A DNA stretch of 64,000 nucleotides from assembly GCF_030065675.1 (NCBI RefSeq), contig NZ_JASJDK010000009.1, forward strand, positions 1 through 64,000, written 5' to 3'. Below the pieces are notes generated by a model. It worked only from the letters and a program-made list of their open reading frames with translations. It did not search any database and was not told where the DNA came from. The stretch's first letter is position 1. Every line of letters begins with the position of its first letter. Shown in pieces: positions 18,577 to 36,652 of the stretch. The DNA comes from Mastigocoleus sp. MO_188.B34 (GTDB lineage Bacteria > Cyanobacteriota > Cyanobacteriia > Cyanobacteriales > Nostocaceae). Both the position numbers and the translations under genes were made by a program.

Positions 18577-19962
18577 ATGAACCTTGATTGTCTACTTGAG
18601 ATTGTTGACAGTAAACTAATTGAAAACCAATATCGCCCCCTTAACCCCACAGAAATTCTTATCATGCGGGGTATTTGGAAGTATCGGACTTATGGTCAAA
18701 TGGCTATAGAAGCAGGTTATAGTACCGGCTACTTTACTAATGTTGCCGCACCTGAGTTATTTGGGCGACTATCTAAAGTGATAGGTCAGCGCGTGACGAA
18801 AAAAAATTGTCGAATGCTGTTGGAATCTTATGTTATTGCTCAAGGTGCTTCGGAGACTCCACCTGTGAGGCAAAATTTGCCAGAATCAAAATCTAAAGTT
18901 AAACAATCTGAAGTTAAACAAAAAGATAACTCTCCTCGCTATCCTAGTGGTTCAGTTCCCCTTGACTCAGAATTTTATATCGAACGATCACCCCTGGAGG
19001 AGCAGGTTTATCAAGAAATTAGCAAGCCAGGAGCCTTAATTAGGATTAAAGCTCCTCGAGAAATGGGTAAAACTTCTCTATTGCTGAGAATTATCGATCA
19101 TGCAAATCTTCTGGGTTACCGTACTATTAGCTTGAATCTAGAGCAAGTAGAATGGGGTACTTTAAGTAATTTGAATCAATTTTTGCGTTGGTTATGCGCT
19201 AACAGCGCTCGTTTGCTTCAGCTTCAACCCAACTTAGACGATTATTGGGATGAAGATTTAGGAAGTAAAATAAGTTCTACTCTGTACTTCCAAGACTATC
19301 TACTAGAGTCTACTGATACTCCCCTAGTATTAGCACTGGATGAAGTTAACCAAATTTTTGAACATCCCCAAGTAGCTAAAGATTTTTTACCTTTATTACG
19401 TTCTTGGTATGAGGAAGCAAAAAGGTTACCGATTTGGCAAAAACTGCGTTTGCTTGTAGTTCACTCAACAGAAATTTATGTTCCTCTCGATCTGAATCAG
19501 TCTCCTTTCAATGTGGGTCTTCCTATTCAGCTAGATAGTTTCAGTGAGGAGAAAGTGCAAAATTTAGCCCAACGCTATGAACTTAAATGGAAAGATGGTG
19601 AAGAAATTAAACAACTAATGGCAATGATTGGAGGTCATCCGGCGTTGGTACACCTGGCACTTTATCACCTGAGTTTAGGTAATATAAGTTTATCCCAACT
19701 GTTAGAAAATATTGCCAATAGTAGTGGAATTTATCATAATCATTTGCAGCGTCATTGGGCAGCATTGGAAAAACAGCCTGAATTAGCACAAGCTTTGGAT
19801 ACCATTCTCAATACTAATGAACCTGTTCTTTTAGATCCTATACTCAGTCATAAATTAAGTAGTATGGGGCTAATTAAAAAATCAGGAGATAAGGTAGTGG
19901 CTGGGTGTGAATTGTATCGGCAGTATTTCTTGTCAGTTTTCAATAACAAAGGAGTGAAATAG
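18577..19962 (+). CDS. HTH (vMAP-type) plus AAA-like (AAA_35) NTPase
   Basis: A 461-residue protein with two modules. Residues 1-95 match the N-terminal HTH domain described for vWA-MoxR-associated proteins (LIMRGIWKYRTYGQMAIEAGYSTGYFTNVAAPELFGRLSKVIG). A charged linker follows (about 100-125). Residues 130-440 form an AAA-like domain of the AAA_35 type: SEFYIERSPLEEQVYQEI, a Walker A variant APREMGKTSLLLRII, Walker B LVLALDEVNQIF, and a C-terminal winged-helix-like end. Proteins of this type are STAND-related switch NTPases common in filamentous cyanobacteria and thought to act in signalling or conflict systems. The effector is not evident. The second AAA_35 domain in the window is in the kinase protein 4 kb downstream. 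Confidence 0.82.
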   Translation: MNLDCLLEIVDSKLIENQYRPLNPTEILIMRGIWKYRTYGQMAIEAGYSTGYFTNVAAPELFGRLSKVIGQRVTKKNCRMLLESYVIAQGASETPPVRQNLPESKSKVKQSEVKQKDNSPRYPSGSVPLDSEFYIERSPLEEQVYQEISKPGALIRIKAPREMGKTSLLLRIIDHANLLGYRTISLNLEQVEWGTLSNLNQFLRWLCANSARLLQLQPNLDDYWDEDLGSKISSTLYFQDYLLESTDTPLVLALDEVNQIFEHPQVAKDFLPLLRSWYEEAKRLPIWQKLRLLVVHSTEIYVPLDLNQSPFNVGLPIQLDSFSEEKVQNLAQRYELKWKDGEEIKQLMAMIGGHPALVHLALYHLSLGNISLSQLLENIANSSGIYHNHLQRHWAALEKQPELAQALDTILNTNEPVLLDPILSHKLSSMGLIKKSGDKVVAGCELYRQYFLSVFNNKGVK

Positions 19963-20567: not shown

Positions 20568-22331
20568 ATGTCACTTGATATCAATAAGTTACGAGGTTCT
20601 AGCAAATTAGCCAATTTATCTCAAGATGTAGAAATTTCAGAAGGAACGTGGCCAGAAAATTTATCTGGTCATGTTTTTATTATTGCTCCTTTTCATCGCA
20701 AAAGTGACACACACTTATTTACTGGTGAAGGTGTAATTATTAGGTGGAATCTTAAATCTGAAGATGGGAAAATCAAGGTTAACAGCAAAAAATTAAAAAC
20801 TTGGGATAGTTTATGGTACGCATCGCTGTTACCAATTAGTAAACTTTTTCCAAAAACATTTTTCCCTGCGCGAACTGGTCTTTGGGGGATTTCAGAGATT
20901 GCTAATACCGCCATTGTCAATATGGATGGAAGGCTAATTCTCACAGCAGATGCAGGACGTTACTGGGAAGCAGACCCAAATACTCTTGAGACTCTTACCC
21001 CAATTGGACGCTTCGATGAACATATCGTTTCTGTTCCCATGTCATTTTTCCCGATGGTGGCTAATACTGCTCACCCTTTTTATGATGAGGAAGCTAAAGA
21101 ACTTATCACCTGCGAACTAAGGACTACACCTCGTCAAGAAAACTTTATTGCTGATATGACCAGTGCTCCTTATATTACTCGTTGGGATGGTGAAGGGACT
21201 TTAAAACACTGGGAATTAGAGGGAACAGTTCTCGATGGTAGTCCCCATACAGCCATAGTGACAGAGAAATTAATTATGATTCCAGATATGCCCTTCCAAA
21301 CGGGTGTAGCAATGTTATTAGGGCTAAAAATTCCACCTCGCAAAGCTTATCCAAAAACACAAATGTATATAGTTAAGCGGAAGGACTTGGAAGCAAATAA
21401 GGGAACTGTTCCATCCCGCTTAGTAACCTTTGGCGGTGATAGTTATCACTTCGTATGTAACTACCGTCATATTGATCAAAAAATTCATTTTGTTGCGGTG
21501 CAGCAAGGAACGATCAGCTTAACCGAAGCAATAGAACCAGATGATGTTAAGCATTTTAGCGGTGAAAGTTATTGCAAAAAATACTATGGTGTGCCTTGGA
21601 TGTTTGCTTTCGACCCTGGGGTCTTACGTAAGGTAGTCATCAACGAAGATGCTCAATTGCTTAGCGAGGAAGCATTCATCCATCCAGGTTGGTATACAAC
21701 TGTTCTCTACACAGCAGATCCGCGAGAACTGAAGGAAGAAAATGGTTACTCTGCCATTTACCAAGTTTATGGAGGATTTCAGCGGGATTTAGTCTGTCGC
21801 CGTCAATATATGAGTTTCCGAGACCATGGAACTCGAGTTTTTACAGATGAGCAACTTCCTCAACATGATCTTCCTTGTGTTTTAGCTAAATTACCTACAG
21901 ATCTAAATTGGAAAGAACTTACCGAGAAACTCGAGATAGAACAACAAGCAAATCCTGATACCCATTTATCTGAGTTGGGTAGAGAACTACTTGATTTTTA
22001 TGTTTGTCCCGAAGGATATCTTTTAGATAGTATTCAATTCATTCCCCAAGAAAAAGGGTACCTGTTTATCAGTGTTGTAACTCCGACAGGTTCGGAAATT
22101 TGGCTGTTTGCTGCCGATTGTCTAAAGCAAGGACCAATAGCTAAAATTAATTTATCGAATAAAATTGACTTTGGTTTTACCTTACATTCAGAATATTTTG
22201 ATCATCTTTCTGAGCGAAAATCAACATATAAAGTTAATAGACTTGCTTCTGCTTTGGGTAGTTTAACCAAGGTTCCTTATGAATTTTTCCTCAATCCACG
22301 TAGTGATATTGTTAACAGAAAGGTAAGGTAG
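20568..22331 (+). CDS. Carotenoid oxygenase (RPE65/CCD) family protein
   Basis: A 587-residue protein related to iron-dependent carotenoid cleavage oxygenases. The N terminus has the family pattern WPENLSGHVFIIAPF...HLFTGEGVI, where the usual GDGM motif is GEGV. Four candidate iron-ligand histidines occur at family spacing: H169 in NTAHPF, H227 in GSPHTAIV, H294 in DSYHFVCNYR and H540 in FTLHSEYF. The start ATG at 20568 follows AGGAG by 7 nt. It is longer than typical cyanobacterial members (about 480-500 residues), with most extra length between H294 and H540. It stands alone between AAA-like and kinase genes. Substrate unknown; it could also be a divergent non-carotenoid member. Confidence 0.82.
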   Translation: MSLDINKLRGSSKLANLSQDVEISEGTWPENLSGHVFIIAPFHRKSDTHLFTGEGVIIRWNLKSEDGKIKVNSKKLKTWDSLWYASLLPISKLFPKTFFPARTGLWGISEIANTAIVNMDGRLILTADAGRYWEADPNTLETLTPIGRFDEHIVSVPMSFFPMVANTAHPFYDEEAKELITCELRTTPRQENFIADMTSAPYITRWDGEGTLKHWELEGTVLDGSPHTAIVTEKLIMIPDMPFQTGVAMLLGLKIPPRKAYPKTQMYIVKRKDLEANKGTVPSRLVTFGGDSYHFVCNYRHIDQKIHFVAVQQGTISLTEAIEPDDVKHFSGESYCKKYYGVPWMFAFDPGVLRKVVINEDAQLLSEEAFIHPGWYTTVLYTADPRELKEENGYSAIYQVYGGFQRDLVCRRQYMSFRDHGTRVFTDEQLPQHDLPCVLAKLPTDLNWKELTEKLEIEQQANPDTHLSELGRELLDFYVCPEGYLLDSIQFIPQEKGYLFISVVTPTGSEIWLFAADCLKQGPIAKINLSNKIDFGFTLHSEYFDHLSERKSTYKVNRLASALGSLTKVPYEFFLNPRSDIVNRKVR

Positions 22332-22735: not shown

Positions 22736-25700
22736 ATGGTGACTCTGGCTGGCTACCAAATTCTGACCCAAATCTACGAAAGCTTTAACTCACAAGTATA
22801 TCAAGCGATTCGCTCCTCAGATAATCGTTCTGTAATCCTTAAGGTACTCAAACAAGAATATCCCACAGCGCAAGAACTTACCCGTTACAAACAAGAATAT
22901 AAAACTATCCGTAGCCTTAACTTTGATGGAGCGATAGAAGCTTACGGTTTAGAACCTTATCAAAAAACATTAATCCTTATTTTAGAAGATTTTGGAGCAA
23001 TATCTCTAAGAAAATGGATTGAGGAAAAACCTTTATTGTTAGAAGATTTTTTCCCACTTGCTATTCAGATAGTTGAAAATTTGGGTAAAATTCATGGGGC
23101 TAAGATTATTCACAAAGATATCAATCCTGCCAATATTATCTTAAACACCACAACCAGACAAATCAAAATCATTGATTTTGGTATCGCTACTATCCTTAAG
23201 CAGGAAAATCCCAGCCTGAAAAGTCCCAACGTTCTTGAAGGAACTTTGGCTTATATCTCCCCAGAACAAACAGGACGGATGAATCGTAGTTTAGATTACC
23301 GTACTGATTTCTATTCCCTTGGAGTTACATTTTACGAACTACTTACTGGATTATTACCTTTTGATGTTAGTGATCCCTTGGAATTAGTTCACTGTCATCT
23401 CGCAAAACAACCCGTATCACCTCATCAAGTTAATTCCGATATTCCTCTGGTTCTATCTCGGATGGTGATGAAATTAATTTCAAAAACAGCCGAGGAACGA
23501 TATCGCAGCACCTATGGGATTAAAGCTGACTTAGAAGAATGCTGGAGACAGTTAGAAACTACGGGACAAATAGAAGATTTTGCGATCGCAACTCAAGATT
23601 TGGCAGATAAATTCCAAATTCCTCAAAAACTATACGGTAGAGAGGAAGAAGTTGCCACATTACTTGAAGCATTTGAAAGAGTTTCAGGGGCAAAATCAAA
23701 CTTATCCCAGACGGAAATTATGTTAGTGAACGGATATTCTGGTACGGGAAAAACAACACTCGTTCAGGAAATCCACAAGTCAATTGCCGAAAAACGAGGA
23801 TATTTTATATCTGGAAAGTTTGATCAGTTTCAGCGTAATACGCCCTACTCTGGAATTGTTAATGCTGTTACTAGTTTAGTAAAGCAACTATTGGGTGAAA
23901 GTAAAATAAGACTGAATCTATGGCGTCAAAAGCTTTTAAATGCATTGGGAGTAAATGGTCAGGTAATTATTGATGTTATTCCCGAAGTAGAATTAATTAT
24001 TGGTAAGCAACAAACATTACCAGAATTAGGAGCAACCGAGACGCAAAATCGCTTCAATTTAGTATTTAAAAATTTTATTCGCGTCTTTTGTTCTTCAGAA
24101 CATCCTTTAGTTCTATTTCTTGATGATTTGCAGTGGGCTGATTCTGCAAGTATGAATTTAATAGAATCAATTATTCTAGATGTAGATATTAAATATTTAT
24201 TCTCGATTTGGTCTTATCGAGATAATGAAATTAGCCCCACCCATATTTTGAGTATTATTCTGGAAAATTTACGTAGAGAAGGGGCAATAATTAACCAAAT
24301 TATTTTAAAATCTTTAAAACTTAAGCATGTTAATCAGTTAATTACAGACACACTCAATAATACGGAAAAAGAAGTAAATCCACTAGCAAAATTAGTTTGG
24401 CAAAAAACCAATGGCAATCCTTTTTTTGTGAGTGAATTTCTCAAAACTATATACTCAGATAATTTACTAGTATTTACCCATTCTCATAATGAGAATAGTC
24501 GAGGTAAAAAATCCCAGGGGTATTGGCAATGGGATCTGAAAAAGATTAAAAGGATTGCAAGCACAGATAATCTCCTAAAATTTACGATCGGTAAAATGCA
24601 GAAATTGCCTAGGTCTACTCAATATATTTTGAGTTTGGCTGCTTGTATTGGTGCAGAATTCGATCTAAATACTATTTCAATTATCAGTGAAAAACCAGCT
24701 ACTGAAATTTTTCACTATTTAACTCCAGCGATTGATACGGGTTTAATCATTACTTTATCGGAATTAAATGAACAGCTATTAATCCAAGATTATAAATTTG
24801 GACACGATCGCATCCAGCAAGCTGCTTATACTCTAATAGAACCGACAGAGAAACCACTCACTCATTTAAAAATCGGTCGTTTACTTTGGCAAAACACTCA
24901 ACCGGATGAGTTATCAGAGAAAATATTTAAAATTGTCGATCATCTTAATTTGGGTTGTGAATTAATTACTGATAAAGCAGAACAAGATGAAATTGCTAAA
25001 TTAAATTTATTAGCCGCAGAAAAGGCAAAAGTAGCTAATGCTTATGAAGCAGCATTAAAATACTTGAAAACAGGTCAAAAACTCTTAGCAGAAGATAGTT
25101 GGGAGACTAACTATAAACTCACATTAAATCTATATTCAGAGATAGTAGAAGTTGCTTATTTAAGTGGCAATTTTGAAGAAATGGAAAATTTTTCTTCACT
25201 AGTACTGCAAAAATCTCAAACTTTACTGGATAAAGTCCAAGTTTATGAAGTTAAGATAGATGCTTATCATTCGCAAAATAAAGAGTTAGAATCTATTCAA
25301 ATCGCCCTTCCAGTTCTACAAAGATTAGATTGTATTTTTCCTGAATCACCTCAATTATTAGATATTCAACAGGAACTAGAAAAAACTCAAAGCCATTTAG
25401 CAGTTAAGCAAATAGAGGATCTAATTAATTTACCTCCAATGACCGATCCAGAAAAATTAGCGGCTATAAAGATAACAAGCTCTATATTTTCTTCTGTCTT
25501 TATTGCTGCTCCTGAAATGTTACCGCTATTGGTATCTAAACAGGTTAATTTGTCTGTCCAATATGGGAATACTTCCCTATCTGCTTTTGCTTATGTTAAT
25601 TATGGACTAATTTTATGTGGTTTGTTAGAGGAATTTGAGCAAGGGTATCAATTTGGATGTCTGGCTGTGAACCTTGCTGATAAATTTCATGCCAAAGAAC

Positions 25701-28700
25701 TTATTCCTAGAATAACTGCAGTATTTATAACATCAATTAGTATCTGGAAAAAACCTCTCAAAAACTCATTAGTATCGCTTCAATCTGGTTATCAGATTGG
25801 TTTGGACGTAGGAGATTTATATTATGGAACTACCTGCGCTTATCTTTATTTGTTTCATTCAGCTTTTGTTGGTAAAGAGCTAGGTGAGTTATCATCAGAA
25901 GTCGCAGCCTACGAGTTAGCTTTCAGTAAACTCAAACAAAAAAATACCCTTAACTATCTAAAAATATACGGTCAAGGTGTTTTAAATTTAATGGGTCGCT
26001 CAGATGATCCCTGCTATTTAATTGGGGAAATTTACCATGAAAGTATTATGGTACCGCTTCATCTAAAGGCAAACGATCGCTATGCACTTGCGGCTTTATA
26101 TGTTAATAAATTACACCTGTGTTATCTGTTTGGAGAATATCACCAGGCTGTTGAGAATGCCATAAATGCTCAACAATATTTAGATGGAGCAACTTCAACT
26201 TTATTAATTCCCCTGTTCCATTTTTATGATTCTCTAGCTCACCTTGCTATTTATAGTTCTGTTTCTAATTCTCAAGATTTTGATTCTCAAAATTCTGACT
26301 CTCAAGATTCTAATTCTCAAGGTTTTAATTCTCAACAACAGCAAATTTTAGCAAGAGTTGCTGTAAATCAAGCAAAAATGCAGAAATGGGCGGATAATGC
26401 ACCAGCCAATTACCTGCACAAATTTTACTTAGTAGAAGCAGAAAAGCATCGAGTTCAAAACTCCTATGTTGACGCAATGGATTTCTATGACCGTGCAATC
26501 GCCGCAGCAGAGAAACATGAGTACATCAACGAAGAAGCTTTAGCTAACGAATTAGCAGCAAAATTCTATCTGGATTGGGGCAAAGAAAAAATTGCTAAAA
26601 CCTATTTCAATGAATCACACTACCTTTATTCTTTATGGGGAGCTACAGCAAAAGTTAGGGACTTAGAAACTAAATATCCCCACTTGTTAGTAAAATCCTC
26701 TGCTTCTATTTCCATCGCAGATATACTAACAACAATGACCAAAACCACCAGTGGAACTCGTTCGGGAGAAATCTTAGATTTTGCTACCATCATGAAAGCA
26801 TCCCAAGCTATTTCTAGTGAAATTGTTTTGGATAAGCTATTGGCGACCTTGATGAAAATTCTCATCGAAAATGCTGGGGCGCAATTTGGTTACCTAATAT
26901 TAGAAACGGAAGGAAAACTCTTCATTGAAGCTTCTGGTTCTATTGATGAGGATGATATTACTGTCTTAAAGTCAATTTCTATTAATAATTATTTACCCAT
27001 ATCAGTTATTAATTATGTTGCTCGTACGCGAGAAACAGTTCTCAAAAATGATGCCGTTAATCATGGCAATTTTACTAACGATCCTTATATTAAATTTCAT
27101 AAAACAAAATCTCTGTTATGTACCCCATTGCTCGACCAAGGAAAGCTGAGGGGAATTGTCTATTTGGAAAATAATTTGACTGTAGGAGCTTTTACCCAAG
27201 ATCGGTTGAAAATTCTTCAGCTTTTATCTAGTCAAGCTGCGATCGCTATTACCAATGCGAAACTCTACACGGAGGTACAGGAAAATCAAAACCGACTCAA
27301 TCAGTTTCTAGAAGCAATGCCAGTGGGTGTATCTGTTTGTGATTCCACGGGTAAGATTTACTATTCCAATGAGATATCCGACAAGTTAGCACAACAAAGT
27401 AATACTTCTTCAAAAATCAATATTAAGGAATTACCCGAAGCCTACCAAGTATATAAATCGGGAACCAAAGAGTTATACCCCGCACAGCAATTGCCAATTG
27501 CGCGAGCACTTTCTGGCGAGACTGTTAACAAAGAAGATTTAGAACTTCATTTGCCACAGAAAATTATACCCCTGGAAGTTTCCGCCAAACCAGTTTTTGA
27601 TGAAAAGGGCAATATTGTTTATGCTATAGCTGCTTTTACTGACATTACAGAACGAAAACAAGCAGAAGCCCAGCGGATTGAGTTTACTCGCGAACTGGAA
27701 CTCAAGAATGCTGCTCTGCAGCAAACAAAAGATGAGTTAGCTGAGTCTAATCGCACTTTGGAACAAAAAGTCTCAGAACGTACCCAAGAATTATCACAAC
27801 TTCTAGAAGTTCTTAAAGCAACCCAAGCCGAACTATTGTTTGAAAACGAGTTACTCAGAAACGCCGAACAACCTTCAAACTTTGATTATCAGGTGGGGGG
27901 AAGTTTACCTATGGATGCTCCAACTTACGTAGTACGTGCTGCAGACCGTTATTTATATAAAGCATTAAAACGTGGGGATTTTTGTTATATTCTCAATCCC
28001 CGACAGATGGGTAAATCAAGCTTGATGGTGCGAATGATGCATCAACTCCAGCACGAGGGTTTTAAATGTGGGGCGATTGACTTAACTCGTATTGGTTGTG
28101 AAAATATTACCCCCGAACAATGGTACAAAGGATTCGCCGTAGAACTGTGGCGAAGTTTTGGTTTGCTCAAAAAGGTAAAAATCAAAAACTGGTGGAATGA
28201 ACGAAATGATGTTTCTCCGGTTCAGCGATTAAGTCAATTTATTGAAGAAGTTTTACTGACCGAAGTCACTCAAGAAGATGATGTTTCACCAAAAAAAATA
28301 GTTATTCTTATCGATGAAATCGACTGTGTCTTAGGACTGAATTTTCCCGTTAATGACTTTTTTGCTTTTATTAGATCCTGCTATAATCAGCGTAGTATAA
28401 ATCAGAAATATAAATGCTTAACATTTGCTTTTTTTGGGGTTGCTACCCCCAGCGACTTAATGAGCGATATTCAAACTACTCCATTTAATATTGGTCAGGC
28501 GATTCAACTGGAAGGATTTAGAGAACATGAAGCCCAACCCCTATTACAAGGGTTAGCGGAAAAAGTGAGTAATCCTCAAACAGTTCTCAAAGAGATATTA
28601 TCTTGGACGAGCGGTCAACCTTTTTTAACGCAAAAAATTTGTAAACTCATCCGCAGTGCTTCATCATCTATTCCTACTAATAAAGAAGCAGAATGGATTG

Positions 28701-28960
28701 AAAATCTGGTACGGACAAATGTCATAGATAACTGGGAATCACAAGATGAACCAGAGCATCTGAGAACTATTCGCGACCGACTGCTTAAAAGCAAACAATC
28801 GCAGCATTTGCAAGAAATCTACCGAAAAATTCTGGACAAGGGAGAGATTGCTGCGGTTGATAGTTCAGAGGAAAGGGAATTACTTTTATCGGGTTTGGTT
28901 GTTAAACAAAAAGGAACCTTAAAAGTTCAAAATAGAATTTATAGATCGATTTTTGTTTAA
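22736..28960 (+). CDS. Giant Ser/Thr kinase - AAA - TPR - GAF - PAS - AAA_35 signalling protein
   Basis: A 2074-residue multidomain protein. (1) About 1-270: Hanks-type Ser/Thr kinase with catalytic loop HKDINPANI (H126) and DFG at 147. (2) About 300-560: AAA_16 NTPase with Walker [10 protein letters not shown] near 333 and Walker [13 protein letters not shown]. (3) About 600-1330: helical TPR-like region, interrupted at 1178-1200 by an NSQ/DSQ insert made of 15-bp DNA repeats. (4) About 1343-1515: GAF domain. (5) About 1520-1640: PAS domain followed by a coiled coil. (6) About 1715-2074: AAA_35 domain with [14 protein letters not shown] near 1755 and [13 protein letters not shown] near 1855. 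Domains 1-5 are those of the HstK-type trifunctional kinases of cyanobacteria, but no HisKA or HATPase is present; the AAA_35 domain takes that place. No membrane segments are evident. Confidence 0.9.
26267..26335 (+). repeat. 15-bp in-frame tandem repeat inside the kinase gene
   Basis: Four full copies and a partial fifth of a 15-bp unit (AATTCTCAAGATTTT, GATTCTCAAAATTCT and variants). They encode [20 protein letters not shown] and NSQ inside the TPR region. The unit is a multiple of three and leaves the frame intact. Confidence 0.95.
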
Positions 28961-30362: not shown

Positions 30363-32858
30363 ATGACTAAGTTAGTTGTTATTAATCTGGGGGAAGGTAG
30401 CTTAAATCAAGGATTTCCAAGAGTTACAGTTCAGCTTTGGGAAACTAATAATTCTCGCCCAACACAATTCTATGGCGGTTTACCCTCAGCGCCAGAAATT
30501 TACGAATTATATAAACGCTTTAAATCAATATATAGCGCACTTTATCAGTCTCTAAGAAAACGTACCCCCTTAACATTAGTCAAAAAGCCCAAAATTGAAA
30601 CCAGTACTGAATTCGCAAATAATATTAAACTGGATGTCGAGGCTAATACTTTATCAAATTCTGAGGCTATAGAATCAGGAGATCTAGAATCAGAAGATCT
30701 AGAATCAGAAAATCTAGAATCAGAAGATTTGGAAATAGACACAGAAGGTTTAACAAACGTTAGTGAATCAGATTTTAATGAAGTTTGTGAGTGGTTATGC
30801 GAACACATTAACATCTGGCTAAACTCCACTTCATTTCGCCCGATAGATCGAAATTTAAGATCGCGATTATCTTTAGATGAAGATTTTCAGGTCATTATTG
30901 AAAGTAATGACTACACCATAAGACGACTTCCTTGGCATTTATGGGATTTCTTTGAGGATTATCAAAAAGCAGAAGTGGGTTTAAGCAAACTTAATTACGA
31001 GCAAGTTCAAAAAAATTCCCAAAAAAATATCAAAAAGGTAAGAATATTAGCTATTTTAGGTAATAGTCAAGGAATTGATGTTCAACAAGACCGAATTTTG
31101 TTGGAGCAATTACCTGATGCATCAATGAAGTTTCTGGTAGAACCTTCACGTCGAGAATTAGATAAATGGCTCTGGGATAAACAGGGCTGGGATATTTTAT
31201 TTTTTGCTGGACATAGTCACAGTCAAGAAGATACAGGAAAAATACATATTAACCGGAAAAACTGTTTAACAGTTGCTGAATTAAAAAATGCTCTCAAATA
31301 TGCGATCGCTCGGGGCTTGAAACTGGCTATTTTTAACTCGTGTGATGGTTTGGGTTTAGCGAAAGAATTAGGCGATCTAAATATTCCCCAGACTATTGTC
31401 ATGCGGGAAAATGTACCAGATCTTATCGCTCATGAGTTTTTGAAAAATTTTTTGACATCATTTGCAGCAGGGGAGTCACTACATTTAGCAGTGCGTTATG
31501 CACGCTTACAGTTGCAAGGTTTAGAGGATAATTTTCCTGGAGCTTCTTGGTTACCAGTAATTTGCCAAAATCCAGCGGAAATAACGCCCACTTGGGAAGA
31601 ATTACGCGGTCGTAAAAAACGCGATATTTTCTCTAGGTTTAATCGGGTAAACCTACAAACAGCATTAACTATAAGTGTTATGGTAACTGCTTGTTTGACG
31701 GGAGTCCGAACTCTAGGATTGATGCAAAAATGGGAATTGTCAGCTTTTGACTCGATGACGCGGATCAAACCCGCAGAAGCTCCAGACAAACGCATTTTGG
31801 TTATTACACTCACGGAAGCGGATATTCAAGCTCAACGGGAAAGACAAAAATCTTCCCTGTCTGATCCAGTATTACAAGAACTATTGGAAAAATTAGAACT
31901 ACATCGACCAAAAGCAATTGGCTTGGATATTTATCGTGATTTTTCCGTAGACACTAAATATCCTAACTTAGCAAATCGTTTGAGAAAGAATGACAACTTC
32001 TTTGCAATTTGTAAAGCTAGTGGTCAAAACCAACATTCACCTGGTACTTCACCTCCTCCAGAAATTCCTGCACAACGTGTAGGCTTCAGTGATGTTGTTG
32101 AAGATAGTGATTTTGTTATTCGTCGTCAGTTGATTTCCCTTACTCCAGAACCTGATTCTTCTTGTAAAACTCAATATTCCTTCAGCCTACAATTGGCAAA
32201 AAAATATTTGGAAAGTCAAGGTATTAAGCTTCAATTTAACAACAAAGGTCATTTTCAATTTCGTGATGTTGTCTTTAAGCCTATTGATGTTCCCACGGGT
32301 GGTTACCAAAAATTTGATTCAGCAGGTCATCAAGTATTACTAAATTATCGCCTTTCACCAACGGTTGGGAAACAAATTACCCTTGCACAAGCATTAAACG
32401 GAGATTTCAATTCTGATTGGATTAAAAACAATATAGTCTTGATTGGAGTTGAGGCGGAAAGTGTTAGAGATACTTTTTTAACACCCCATGGAAAACTATC
32501 AGGGGTAATTATTCACGCTCACATGGTGAGTCAAATTCTTAGTGCTGTTTTGGATGGGCGTTCCTTATTGTGGGTTTGGTCTGGCTCGGGAGAGCTTATA
32601 TGGATTTGGTTTTGGTCTTTATTGGGAGGGGTGATCGCTTTATACAATGGTTCCCAATTACAACGATCTATTTTCATCGGTAATGCACTTTTAACTCAGT
32701 TTTTAGTTTGTTTTCTTTTGTTATTACAAGGTGGTTGGATACCAATTGTACCTTCAGTATTATCCTTTTTAATTACTACACTTTTTGTCAAAATATACAC
32801 TGACTTTTCCGTTCAAAAGAAAGCATTAGGCTCTGTCCAGCAACCTGTACGCTATTGA
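30363..32858 (+). CDS. CHAT-CHASE2 membrane protein (caspase-like protease fused to sensor)
   Basis: An 831-residue protein. The N-terminal 140 residues match the region found before CHAT in cyanobacterial CHASE2 proteins (LVVINLGEGSLNQGFPRVTVQ). About 210-420 is a CHAT domain with candidate catalytic His in ILFFAGHSHS (near 283) and Cys in LAIFNSCDGLG (near 327). About 450-720 is a CHASE2 extracytoplasmic sensor domain (LSAFDSMTRIKPAEAPDKRILVITLTE, KAIGLDIYRDF, NIVLIGVEAESVRDTFLTPHG). Three hydrophobic helices close the protein. A Leu-Glu-Ser acidic insert at about 104-123 is built from 15-bp DNA repeats. It probably senses a signal outside the membrane and controls a CHAT protease. It precedes the DUF928 gene on the same strand. 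Confidence 0.88.
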   Translation: MTKLVVINLGEGSLNQGFPRVTVQLWETNNSRPTQFYGGLPSAPEIYELYKRFKSIYSALYQSLRKRTPLTLVKKPKIETSTEFANNIKLDVEANTLSNSEAIESGDLESEDLESENLESEDLEIDTEGLTNVSESDFNEVCEWLCEHINIWLNSTSFRPIDRNLRSRLSLDEDFQVIIESNDYTIRRLPWHLWDFFEDYQKAEVGLSKLNYEQVQKNSQKNIKKVRILAILGNSQGIDVQQDRILLEQLPDASMKFLVEPSRRELDKWLWDKQGWDILFFAGHSHSQEDTGKIHINRKNCLTVAELKNALKYAIARGLKLAIFNSCDGLGLAKELGDLNIPQTIVMRENVPDLIAHEFLKNFLTSFAAGESLHLAVRYARLQLQGLEDNFPGASWLPVICQNPAEITPTWEELRGRKKRDIFSRFNRVNLQTALTISVMVTACLTGVRTLGLMQKWELSAFDSMTRIKPAEAPDKRILVITLTEADIQAQRERQKSSLSDPVLQELLEKLELHRPKAIGLDIYRDFSVDTKYPNLANRLRKNDNFFAICKASGQNQHSPGTSPPPEIPAQRVGFSDVVEDSDFVIRRQLISLTPEPDSSCKTQYSFSLQLAKKYLESQGIKLQFNNKGHFQFRDVVFKPIDVPTGGYQKFDSAGHQVLLNYRLSPTVGKQITLAQALNGDFNSDWIKNNIVLIGVEAESVRDTFLTPHGKLSGVIIHAHMVSQILSAVLDGRSLLWVWSGSGELIWIWFWSLLGGVIALYNGSQLQRSIFIGNALLTQFLVCFLLLLQGGWIPIVPSVLSFLITTLFVKIYTDFSVQKKALGSVQQPVRY
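30671..30730 (+). repeat. 15-bp in-frame tandem repeat inside the CHAT-CHASE2 gene
   Basis: Four copies of AGAATCAGAAGATCT with few changes, starting at 30671, 30686, 30701 and 30716. They encode the ESGDL/ESEDL/ESENL/ESEDL acidic stretch between the N-terminal region and the CHAT domain. The frame is kept. Confidence 0.95.
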
Positions 32859-32904
32859 TATAAAAATTAATTTGTAAGCATCGCAAGAAGTTCAGTTGAC
32901 CTTA

Positions 32905-33004
32905 TCTTTATTGCAATTAATTTTTGTTGCACTTTCTTTATTGCAATTAATTTATTGTATTTTCTTTATTGCAATTAATTTCTTGCATTTTCTTTTATTG
33001 CATT
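32905..33004. repeat. 28-30-bp tandem repeat upstream of the DUF928 gene
   Basis: Units begin with TCTTTATTGCAATTAATTT at 32905 (30 bp), 32935 (28 bp) and 32963 (28 bp), plus a partial copy from 32991. The array fills most of the 158-bp gap between the CHAT-CHASE2 gene and the DUF928 gene and lies directly upstream of the latter's start, where it could influence its expression. Confidence 0.93.
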
Positions 33005-33016
33005 GTGTAATCCCTA

Positions 33017-33859
33017 ATGACTAAGAATAAGCTTTCTTTTTTACAGATGCTGCTTCCTTGCTTGCTCGCTTTGACAATTATTAATGTTACGCGATCCCCA
33101 GCATATTCTAATCAGTCAGATAGCAGCAGAATCCGCTTTATTGAACCAACTTTAAATAAAAAACCAGCAAATAGAGGCGCACCAAAAGACCGGAAAGGAG
33201 CAGGAACTCGTAGTGAAGAATGTCCTGCAACTAAACCCGATTTTACTGCTTTAGTACCATTAATGCAGATTGGTGAAAAACCAGATCCCCAAAAAATTGC
33301 AGATCCATCGTCAAAATCGGGTTTGGGGTTAACAACCTTAGAATATCCAACCTTTTGGTTTTATGTTCCTCATACATCCGGTAAAATCAATTCTTTAAAG
33401 TTTGTGTTGTTGGATGAAGCCAAGAACCCTATGACAAAAGAGCCGATTCGGGTTGATATACCTCAAAAACCGGGAACGATTGGGATCAAGCTTTCTAAAA
33501 CAGCAAAACCTTTAGAAATCGGAAAGTACTATCACTGGTATTTTTTAGTAGATTGCAATCCGCGAAGTATTTCTGAGGATATGGCTATTGAGGGTTTTGT
33601 TAAAAGGATCCCTCTACAACCAAATTTAAAACAAGAATTGGAAGGTGCTACACCACAGCAAAAAGCAAAAATTTATGCTCGAGCAGGTATTTGGCAAGAT
33701 GCGATCGCAATATTAGCTAAACTTCGTCGTAATAAACCACAAAATACCTTATTTTTGAATGATTGGAAAGATTTATTGCAATCTGTTGACTTGGACGAGA
33801 TTGCTAATGAACCAATTCAAGATTGTTGTAGTAATGCGAAACACATTAGTAGTAAGTAA
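33017..33859 (+). CDS. Secreted DUF928 protein
   Basis: A 280-residue protein with an N-terminal signal sequence (FLQMLLPCLLALTIINVTRSPAYS). The DUF928 pattern is clear: RGAPKDRKGAGTRSEEC, FTALVPLMQIGEKP, GLTTLEYPTFWFYVPH and the late WYFLVDCNPRSISEDMAIEGFVKRI. The function of DUF928 is not established; in cyanobacteria such genes often sit beside CHASE2 and CHAT genes, as here. The stop codon TAA is immediately followed by an ATGAGTA-like heptamer. It converges on the TPR-CHAT gene. Confidence 0.88.
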   Translation: MTKNKLSFLQMLLPCLLALTIINVTRSPAYSNQSDSSRIRFIEPTLNKKPANRGAPKDRKGAGTRSEECPATKPDFTALVPLMQIGEKPDPQKIADPSSKSGLGLTTLEYPTFWFYVPHTSGKINSLKFVLLDEAKNPMTKEPIRVDIPQKPGTIGIKLSKTAKPLEIGKYYHWYFLVDCNPRSISEDMAIEGFVKRIPLQPNLKQELEGATPQQKAKIYARAGIWQDAIAILAKLRRNKPQNTLFLNDWKDLLQSVDLDEIANEPIQDCCSNAKHISSK

Positions 33860-33885
33860 TGAGTAAGAATTAAATGATAACAGTT

Positions 33886-33924
33886 AACTGTAGCCCGTAA
33901 CGGCGTGGCGTTAGCCATAAACTG
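33886..33924. repeat. Dispersed G+C-rich extragenic repeat, copy 2
   Basis: Inverted copy of 9088-9126 with a single mismatch over 39 bp. It occupies the 72-bp gap between the convergent DUF928 and TPR-CHAT genes. Confidence 0.85.
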
Positions 33925-33931
33925 ATAACCG

Positions 33932-36652
33932 TCAAAACCAATTTCCCACCAAAACATACGGAGCCCAATAAAATGGGTGTGGTTGGTGTTTTCGAAAAAC
34001 TAACCTTTGAGCTTCACTTAAAGCTTCCGCTTTGCTGATGTTTGGATTTTTGGCTAATTGCTCATAAAATTCTGCCATCAGCACAGAGGTAGATTCATCG
34101 TCAACTCGCCATAATGAAGCAACTGTACTACTTGCTCCCGAACGTACTGCGATTCCCGCTAACCCCAAAGCTGCTCGTTTATCTCCTGTTGCGGTTTCGC
34201 AAGCACTGAGGACTAGTAGTTCAATTGGATTAAGTTTGCGAAATCTTTTCCCTTGTAACTCTTCTCTACTTTGGAGTACTTCTTTTAATTCCTTAGCATT
34301 AATTCTCTCGTTCCAAGTAAGAATAAACGTGTCTTCTACTTGGGAACTGAATTTACCATGGGTTGCAAGATGAATAATGGGATAGGAAACAGAAGTAACC
34401 TGTTTTTCGATGTTTTCATTTGTAAATGAATCATTGAGAATTTTTATCGAGGGAATTTTAGATTGAATTTTTTCTAACTCTGTAGCGACGTGAGGTAAAG
34501 CACGAAAACCTCCACGGGGTTCTGTAATTCCACCGGTTAAAGCTCTAAGTTTTTTGTCTTCTTCGGAAGGTGTTACCAATTGCAACCCAGGAGCTAAAGC
34601 AAGGCTGTATTTTTCCATGAGATAATGTTTCCCATCGTACAACGCTGCCATGGGAATATTACGTAAGAAATCATCCAAAACAAATACTAAATTTTTAATT
34701 TTATGTTTTTCTAAGTCTTTTTCTATTGGTTTGATTAACCAGTTGTATACTTCTTGGGAAAGTTGTTCGCGATCGCTAAAGGTAAAGCGTTGTTGTACTT
34801 TTTGACGCAGTAGTTTTAGGGTATTTTCGACTTCGCTTTGTGGTTTTTTGGTTCTGTAATGGCGAAGTTCTTTGACACGAGATAATTTAACCACTGTTTC
34901 GATGTGATCGGGCAAAATAATTGGGTAGATAACTGCTGTGGGGATTTTTCCATCATCTACAATTTGGTCGATTCTTTTCGGTTGAGCGATGGAACAAGCA
35001 TCCCGGAAAAAGTTATCGATTTGAGCTAATTGTAACGCTTCAATGACGTCGCGGGCTTGCTTTAAATTTTTTGAAGGAACATTAGAAGGTTCTAAAAGTA
35101 AACTTACTAGCTGTCGATACAACGGTTCTACTTCATCTCTAAAGTCAAACTGAGTATCGGGATTGAGAGCTACTAAATCGCTGCGTAAGGATTGGAGGGA
35201 TTCTATGGCTAGGGTATAAGCTTTAATAGCTCCCTGTGCATCTCCTTGCTTCAAAAGTATCCTTCCTAATTGCCATTCCCACTGATATTTAATGTCTGAC
35301 GCATTGATATTCTGGGCTAAAAGAAGAGCTGATTTTGTATATTGACTGGCAATTTTCGATTGTTTGTTGTATTCATATACCCGAGCTAGATTCCCCAAAG
35401 CATAGGACTCAGAACGAGTATCTCCAAGCTCTTTGGCTTGTTTAATTGCTTTTGTTAGTAATCGAGCCACATTTTCCAGATTCTGATAATTTTTTTCCTG
35501 GCTGGGGTTTTCTTGTTGTGCAAAACATACTAGGCTTTGGGCAAAATTCACCTTTGCGTAAACTGCACTCCGACTAGGGCTTAAACTATCAATTTCTGTT
35601 TGCAGCGATCGTAATTCTTCTACTTTTGGTTGCTGCTGTAGTTCTAGTAAAGCCCTCAAATAATTTAATTTTGCCTGTACTTCGCCGATTTTTGAAGTTG
35701 ATTTACTGGCACTTTTTTGATAAAAATTAGCTGAATTTCGATAATGACCCAAGGCTTCAGATTTCTTCGTAATTCTGCCACAAGAGAAAGGTGAAGACTT
35801 ATTTCCATTCCCCGCATCTCTTAGCTGACTCCTTCTCCCAAACAAGAATTCTGTGTTACCTAAACTCAATAAAGTTGCGCTTTCTTCTTGGGGGGATCTT
35901 AATTTTTCCGCTACAACCAAACTCTGTTTTAATAATTCTGTGGACTCCTTTAAATGTCCATTTGCACGTTTAATATCACCCAAACTACGCAACCCTGCAA
36001 CTTTAATCCCAAGGTTTGGTTGTTTTCGTAAAGTTTGTTCTATTTCCTTGAATATTTTTTGCGATCGCTGGTAAAAACCTAAGCTTTGTAATGCCGTTAT
36101 TTCATTAATTTGGCTCCCAATTTTACCGGTTTCATCATTAACTTCACCATAGATTTTAGCGGCTTGATTCCAAGATTTAATTGCTTCTTCTGCTTTTCCC
36201 TGAGTTAATTGCAGATTTCCTTGGGTATTAAGAGTTAAGGCTAAAATCTTTTTTACGGGATCGGAATTAAGTTTTAAACCATTAAGCAAATTAAGGCTAT
36301 TTCTTACATTTTCAGTTGCTTGGGTTAAATTTCCCTGTTTTTGCTCGGTTAGGGAAAGATAGTTCAACGCCAAAACTTGATTTAAAATATCGCCTCGGGA
36401 TTGATAGATATTTGCTGCTTGCGTTAACAACTTTGCAGCGAGGGGAAATTTTCCTAACTGATAGAAATTTTTGCCCTTTTGCAGCAATCGATCTGGGTGT
36501 GTTGTTAATTCTAGTTGTTGTGTGAGTTTCGTATGTTTGGGGAAGGAAGTTATTTGGGAATTTGCCGGTATCATATCGATACCTAAACTAAAAAATAGTC
36601 CCAACAAAACTAAAAGGACAACTTTTAATCGAAAAGTCCAGGTTCTAACCAT
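33932..36652 (-). CDS. TPR-CHAT domain protein (caspase-like)
   Basis: A 906-residue protein with an N-terminal hydrophobic segment (VVLLVLLGLFFSLGIDMIPANS), likely a signal peptide or anchor, so the rest may be periplasmic. About 50-500 are TPR repeats. About 600-905 is a CHAT domain with the candidate catalytic His in PIIHLATHGKF and Cys in LLVLSACETATG, followed by the family motifs ALGLAGIAVRSGASSTVASLWRVDDEST and HPFYWAPYVLVGNW. Between two TPR units a segment of about 25 residues (RRSQLRDAGNG...FSCGRITKK) looks inserted and is unlike its surroundings. CHAT proteins with TPRs include HetF of heterocyst development; this one is not clearly HetF. It converges on the DUF928 gene. Confidence 0.9.
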   Translation of the reverse strand: MVRTWTFRLKVVLLVLLGLFFSLGIDMIPANSQITSFPKHTKLTQQLELTTHPDRLLQKGKNFYQLGKFPLAAKLLTQAANIYQSRGDILNQVLALNYLSLTEQKQGNLTQATENVRNSLNLLNGLKLNSDPVKKILALTLNTQGNLQLTQGKAEEAIKSWNQAAKIYGEVNDETGKIGSQINEITALQSLGFYQRSQKIFKEIEQTLRKQPNLGIKVAGLRSLGDIKRANGHLKESTELLKQSLVVAEKLRSPQEESATLLSLGNTEFLFGRRSQLRDAGNGNKSSPFSCGRITKKSEALGHYRNSANFYQKSASKSTSKIGEVQAKLNYLRALLELQQQPKVEELRSLQTEIDSLSPSRSAVYAKVNFAQSLVCFAQQENPSQEKNYQNLENVARLLTKAIKQAKELGDTRSESYALGNLARVYEYNKQSKIASQYTKSALLLAQNINASDIKYQWEWQLGRILLKQGDAQGAIKAYTLAIESLQSLRSDLVALNPDTQFDFRDEVEPLYRQLVSLLLEPSNVPSKNLKQARDVIEALQLAQIDNFFRDACSIAQPKRIDQIVDDGKIPTAVIYPIILPDHIETVVKLSRVKELRHYRTKKPQSEVENTLKLLRQKVQQRFTFSDREQLSQEVYNWLIKPIEKDLEKHKIKNLVFVLDDFLRNIPMAALYDGKHYLMEKYSLALAPGLQLVTPSEEDKKLRALTGGITEPRGGFRALPHVATELEKIQSKIPSIKILNDSFTNENIEKQVTSVSYPIIHLATHGKFSSQVEDTFILTWNERINAKELKEVLQSREELQGKRFRKLNPIELLVLSACETATGDKRAALGLAGIAVRSGASSTVASLWRVDDESTSVLMAEFYEQLAKNPNISKAEALSEAQRLVFRKHQPHPFYWAPYVLVGNWF

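Follow-up and report, generated by a model that had tools for sequence, protein, structure and literature searches.

The open reading frame at positions 22736 to 28960 of the window (the whole 64,000-nucleotide stretch of Mastigocoleus sp. MO_188.B34 DNA that was analyzed) is real and unbroken. It encodes a protein of 2,074 amino acids in which a Ser/Thr kinase domain, an AAA_16 NTPase, a helical middle region, a GAF domain, a PAS domain, a coil, and an AAA_35 domain follow one another (Table 1). The kinase domain keeps its Lys36, HKD-N, and DFG motifs, and the sequence of the AAA_16 domain contains Walker [10 protein letters not shown] and the Walker B motif LVLFLDD. An earlier note on this DNA had proposed the order kinase, AAA_16, TPR, GAF, PAS. 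Pfam recovered all of it except the TPR. We refer to the middle merely as a helical region because no TPR family reached E 0.01 there.

The match to Pfam AAA_35 (PF14516) is near full-length (profile positions 4 to 329 of 331; 123 bits versus a gathering cut-off of 27), and both of its Walker motifs, [10 protein letters not shown] and ILIDEID, are intact. The claim that a complete AAA_35 domain with its own Walker A and Walker B follows the coil thus stands, as does the claim that histidine kinase domains are missing: neither HisKA nor HATPase families were found by Pfam at E <= 0.01 in the 2,074-residue protein, C terminus included. The possibility of a histidine kinase hidden at the C terminus was rejected on this result.

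Upstream of the kinase gene is a separate gene for a second AAA_35 protein (18577-19962), which the earlier note had described as an HTH-AAA_35 protein with related outputs. The gene exists, but the description was incomplete in that the gene represents a distinct, co-evolving partner class, designated class A below. The HTH label holds only by resemblance. The N-terminal 120 residues of the protein itself matched no Pfam family and no PDB sequence, and a recognizable Cro/C1 HTH was matched by 2 of 13 related N termini. Between this gene and the kinase gene lies an oxygenase gene, a part of the operon that the earlier note had missed. Its product keeps four iron-ligand-type histidines (169, 227, 294, and 540) and is a putative carotenoid- or stilbene-cleaving-type enzyme. 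The closest named models in NCBIfam, those for lignostilbene dioxygenases, matched it far below their cut-off, and a PDB sequence search with the oxygenase gave no match. Only three RPE65 genes, this one among them, are present in the window's genome.

Table 1. Positions in the window of the genes, domains, and motifs discussed in the text
Feature	Position	Strand	Basis
Class A partner: helical, HTH-like N-terminal domain and class A AAA_35 (residues 122-452)	18577..19962	+	Pfam, 493 bits
Divergent RPE65-family (carotenoid/stilbene) oxygenase, between class A and kinase genes	20568..22331	+	Pfam RPE65, 78 bits versus 27
Ser/Thr protein kinase domain, residues 18-254	22787..23497	+	Pfam Pkinase, 119 bits
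AAA_16 NTPase domain, residues 298-483	23627..24184	+	Pfam AAA_16, 140 bits
GAF domain, residues 1365-1505	26828..27250	+	Pfam
PAS domain, residues 1525-1642	27308..27661	+	Pfam PAS_4
Linker, read as coiled coil, residues 1643-1715	27662..27880	+	Sequence
Class B AAA_35 / STAND NTPase, residues 1722-2073	27899..28954	+	Pfam, 123 bits
Walker [11 protein letters not shown] of class B domain, starting at residue 1754	27995..28024	+	Sequence
Walker B ILIDEID of class B domain, residues 1857-1863 (DEID at 1860)	28304..28324	+	Sequence
CHAT-CHASE2 protein, downstream and outside the conserved core	30363..32858	+	Pfam

The AAA_35 matches in the window's genome split into two groups, class A at about 380 to 510 bits and class B, to which the C-terminal domain of the kinase protein belongs, at about 80 to 135 bits. 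A and B genes stand side by side in this genome and in five others. The two classes are homologous along their whole length (profile comparison, probability 99.5). All 39 class B sequences keep the GKSS motif and the Walker B D and E. The Walker A Lys is present in 49 of 49 class A sequences, in which the Walker B D is retained in 38 and the E in 34. Because the Walker B acids are partly lost in class A and strict in class B, the sequences hint that the two classes play unequal roles.

AlphaFold2 models of the class B domain and of the class A partner (pLDDT 88 for each) had their best structural matches among archaeal STAND-type ATPases, 2qen and 2fna, with Z scores of 20 to 21 over full-length alignments (21.2 and 20.1, respectively, for class B). 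Plant NLRs and CED-4 came next for both classes, at Z 15 to 18 over about 290 residues with the winged helix included (about 16 to 17 for class B). The matches in the structure search with the class A partner were filled by its NTPase core. As modeled, both A and B are full NBD-HD1-WHD STAND cores. PDB sequence searches with A and B returned RecA P-loop matches only.

The earlier note had raised two questions about the fusion, whether the architecture recurs with conserved Walker residues and whether it is instead confined to one assembly by a junction error. It recurs in cyanobacteria with the Walker residues strictly conserved, and an assembly or junction error was rejected because full-length homologues of the kinase protein occur in other genomes. 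Among the first 60 relatives listed, five other genomes had such homologues, in one case in pieces. Two 91%-identical copies, both full-length, belong to a genome of the same genus (G001), and 47 to 52% identical full-length proteins are found in genomes of the same family and order (G004, G039, and G024). When 84,980 species genomes were scanned with the class B domain, 80 loci were obtained, all of them cyanobacterial, and 25 of these are kinase-AAA_35 fusions. With plasmid records included there are 36 fusion loci, a total that counts the window and the two near-identical G001 copies, in at least 11 named or coded cyanobacterial families from several orders. In one orthologous A - RPE65 - kinase-B operon (L165:9169-15288, G133) the kinase frame is divided, with a 3-base gap, into a kinase-AAA_16 protein (1,084 amino acids) and a GAF-PAS-B protein (953 amino acids). 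The break may reflect a sequencing error, a pseudogene, or a real split.

The C-terminal histidine kinase is the defining feature of the HstK or cbSTKIII dual kinases of cyanobacteria, such as Alr2258 (PMC2176072). The window protein resembles them in having an N-terminal Ser/Thr kinase and at least one GAF domain (sometimes with PAS) in the same order, and it is about 43 to 55% identical to histidine kinase-type relatives over its front 1,500 to 1,690 residues. Unlike them, it has AAA_35B in place of HisKA/HATPase, and its operon also contains an enzyme gene and the gene of a STAND partner. The 20 closest non-AAA_35 relatives examined terminate in HisKA_3/HATPase, HisKA-HATPase-REC, HATPase, or guanylate cyclase domains, and many of them adjoin a REC gene. 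The same kinase-AAA_16-GAF front end thus bears a histidine kinase, a histidine kinase with REC, a cyclase, or AAA_35B, depending on the relative, and there were at least 10 changes of output state (fused, split, or histidine kinase) on a tree of 64 kinases. In this kinase lineage AAA_35B has taken the place of the histidine kinase, as the earlier note had surmised.

The linker is conserved together with PAS in PAS-coil-AAA_35 modules. The PAS domain and coil of the window protein are 54 to 60% identical to those of most REC-PAS-AAA_35 and hybrid histidine kinase-AAA_35 proteins, compared with about 43% for histidine kinase-type kinases, and judged by this similarity PAS-coil-AAA_35B looks like a single movable cassette. 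The same module appears in split operons of the form [RPE65 or amidohydrolase] - kinase-HK - REC - REC-PAS-AAA_35B (loci L071, L075, L076, and L095; L070, L072, L073, L087, and L161). The split form was found with both kinds of enzyme cassette, RPE65 and YcaO/TOMM-type. A complete split operon is carried by plasmid pNSMS101 of Nostoc sp. MS1 (L161), with genes for class A, a hypothetical protein, a YcaO/TOMM fusion, an amidohydrolase, kinase-HK, REC, and REC-PAS-AAA_35B, the last of which is missing from the PLSDB gene table.

Class B domains are joined to a variety of input domains. These include kinase-AAA_16-GAF-PAS, REC-PAS, dCache-HAMP, PAS-GAF, and cyclic nucleotide (cNMP)-binding domains and a hybrid histidine kinase (dCache-HAMP-HisKA-HATPase-REC-PAS), and B domains located N-terminally are joined to WD40, GUN4, CHASE2, or TPR. 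Several B proteins, namely REC-PAS-B, cNMP-B, and Cache-HAMP-B, have no kinase at all. The hybrid kinase, encoded on another contig of the window's genome (C182, L045:2142-6293), ends in PAS-coil-AAA_35B, and its B domain is 78% identical to that of the window. In the protein encoded at L079:6121-7944 the cyclic-nucleotide-binding domain is fused directly to AAA_35B, an architecture that suggests cNMP-gated STAND signaling.

Class A proteins bear TIR (7 of 49), GGDEF (5), CHAT (3), trypsin, cyclase, kinase, EAD1, or EAD4 domains, and others have short HTH-like N termini. At L043:7147-9312, for example, a class A AAA_35 protein of 721 amino acids carries trypsin-like peptidase and TIR-like domains in front, beside a class B protein of 985 amino acids with no other Pfam domain.

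The two classes are encoded together far more often than expected. A class A gene was present in the examined flank of 14 of 25 kinase-B loci, versus 0.48 expected by chance, and of 25 of 31 N-terminal-B loci, versus 0.73 expected, with the expectation derived from an A-gene density of 1.5 per Mb estimated from the window's genome and five others. No class A gene was found in the examined flank of the other 11 kinase-B loci or of most REC-PAS-B loci, and the upstream flank examined at all these loci was short. Of the 9 B genes in the window's genome, 7 lie within about 8 kb of an A gene, and the remaining two are on short contigs. The sequence distances of A and B co-vary over 57 pairs (r = 0.71; 0 of 5,000 permutations as high). 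Pairs from the window's genome alone, for which species history is no explanation, also correlate (r = 0.75; 147 of 5,040 permutations as high). Fused B-cyclase-A and B-A proteins are also known (L057:4718-7432 and L083:16951-19221). The gene at 18577-19962 is likely the partner of the kinase-B protein. However, class A also occurs with B partners unrelated to kinases, and the partnership is therefore not very informative about the particular output of this system.

The order A - RPE65 - kinase-B is common to the window, G001 (twice), G004, G039, and Microcystis. In all 14 examined loci that have an RPE65-family gene, it is on the same strand as the kinase gene and -4 to 451 bp upstream of it. 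The idea that the oxygenase always accompanies AAA_35 was rejected, because two close oxygenase relatives, in G073 and G059, lie away from any AAA_35. Other kinase-B operons have instead YcaO/SagD and TOMM leader-binding fusion proteins, amidohydrolase, radical SAM-SPASM, or SagB/ThcOx enzymes; a search for TOMM genes gave no SagD/YcaO match in the window's own genome. After the amidohydrolase in several kinase-AAA_35 operons there is a conserved gene for a protein of about 357 to 416 amino acids (L066:3809-4882, with homologues in L061, L062, L067, and L082) that has no Pfam or NCBIfam match.

Of 44 kinases that have AAA_35B fused to them or encoded downstream, 34 have an enzyme cassette upstream, versus 0 of 20 controls (Fisher p = 1.5e-9, with relatedness ignored). 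The controls were 20 kinases of the histidine kinase or cyclase type, in none of which did the upstream stretch examined, about 3 kb, contain an enzyme cassette, A, or B. An independent-pairs test had 3 pairs only, none of them against the expected direction, and the association is not independent of phylogeny. Downstream of the kinase gene, positions 30363 to 36652 hold the CHAT-CHASE2 gene, a gene for a 280-amino-acid protein, and a convergent TPR-CHAT gene. Among the loci examined, only those of the same genus have the first two in this position, and the CHAT-CHASE2 gene is absent from the other kinase-B loci.

Large Ser/Thr kinases have been noted in the TOMM clusters of proteobacteria (PMC2887384). 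The window protein is like the TOMM kinase/cyclase fusion in being a large kinase with an NTPase-like part, many relatives of which are in operons with YcaO/cyclodehydratase genes. It differs in scoring 120 bits against a cut-off of 705.75 for TIGR03903, in having no cyclase, and in having an RPE65-type oxygenase in its operon.

We think it probable that the window protein is a sensor with a STAND-type transmitter, the class B domain, that acts with its cognate class A protein, with an output that is probably transcription and is coupled to the oxygenase. The kinase, AAA_16, GAF, and PAS part would read the signal, which would then run through the post-PAS coil to the B domain and switch its nucleotide state; this domain would take over the role of phosphotransfer as transmitter. 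The B domain would work, presumably by direct contact, with the class A STAND protein encoded upstream, whose HTH-like domain might bind DNA and deliver the output. The B-to-A direction is proposed because class B bears the inputs and class A the outputs. The regulated or coupled activity would be that of the oxygenase, which would make or remove a cleaved carotenoid or stilbene-type metabolite. As in a two-component phosphorelay, the input and output proteins are separate, and some relatives use HK-REC-REC-PAS-AAA_35B at the same operon position; unlike in a phosphorelay, the fused form has no phosphotransfer step and its transmitter would be a P-loop NTPase. Like other STAND NTPases (2qen/2fna, CED-4, Apaf-1, and plant NLRs), the AAA_35 domains have the predicted NBD-HD1-WHD fold, Walker A and B, and a GxP motif (GQP/GHP). 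Unlike STAND NTPases that have sensor, switch, and effector on one polypeptide, these divide into two classes that depend on each other, the first associated with inputs and the second with outputs. It is also possible, at somewhat less than an even chance, that the pair is a general cyanobacterial STAND analogue of two-component signaling, in which a B transmitter on interchangeable sensors acts on a cognate A with interchangeable outputs, replaces the histidine kinase or sits below a phosphorelay, and controls small-molecule or modified-peptide enzymes in several lineages.

Several other explanations are less probable. The AAA_35 domain might act on its own as a second switch NTPase, with the pathway ending inside this protein and the upstream HTH-AAA_35 gene being merely a paralogue with a related output. 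The complete domain and intact Walker motifs would agree with this, as would the 11 of 25 kinase-B loci without an A gene in the stretch examined. However, A and B are distinct classes that are paired much more often than chance predicts, co-vary, and in some cases are fused, and the recognizable output domains are on A and not on B. We consider this explanation unlikely. The Ser/Thr kinase might alternatively be the real output, acting on the neighboring enzyme or on A, with the AAA_35 pair as an oligomerization scaffold. We consider this very unlikely, even though the kinase retains its Lys, HKD-N, and DFG residues, proteobacterial TOMM clusters combine the precursor with a large Ser/Thr kinase (PMC2887384), and the window kinase protein weakly matches TIGR03903 TOMM_kin_cyc. 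The same front end takes very different transmitters (histidine kinase, cyclase, or AAA_35) with the rest unchanged, and B domains exist without a kinase.

An NLR-like conflict or self-destruction sensor is, like the self-contained switch, unlikely. In such a system a cue from infection or damage would make the STAND pair oligomerize, and A would trigger an effector (TIR, protease, or CHAT). Both domains fold like NLR/CED-4/Apaf-1 cores, CHAT genes are found downstream within the window, and other A proteins bear TIR, trypsin, CHAT, and EAD domains, which have been placed in conflict systems (PMC7159879). Yet no toxic effector domain is present in the A protein of the window, and the conserved neighbors are metabolic enzymes rather than nucleases or proteases. 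PADLOC gave no match for the window's A, and the best 25 of the 35 matches of the kinase protein were generic kinase-type entries. The NTPase-centered vWA-MoxR ternary and EAD conflict systems described in cyanobacteria share an NTPase core and TIR, trypsin, EAD, and GUN4 domains with the AAA_35 proteins (PMC7159879). Their core differs from the B/A STAND pair, AAA_35 is not named in that report, and neither vWA nor MoxR was matched when six proteins of the window were scanned with Pfam.

A search of the open-access literature gave no account of the A/B pair or of the kinase-AAA_35 fusion. A kinase with a STAND end, a partner ATPase gene, and an oxygenase in one operon point to an undescribed kind of signaling system. 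Each of the six cyanobacterial genomes examined has many copies of AAA_35, which NCBI annotates merely as "AAA-like"; if the sensor-transmitter reading preferred here is true, the domain would be a general transmitter and receiver pair. ATPase switches of the NLR type are familiar from immunity and apoptosis, and such a system would join one of them to classical bacterial sensing (GAF, PAS, REC, and histidine kinase). For dozens of orphan sensors it would also suggest partners that can be tested, and it would hint at regulated carotenoid-oxygenase or RiPP-like products.
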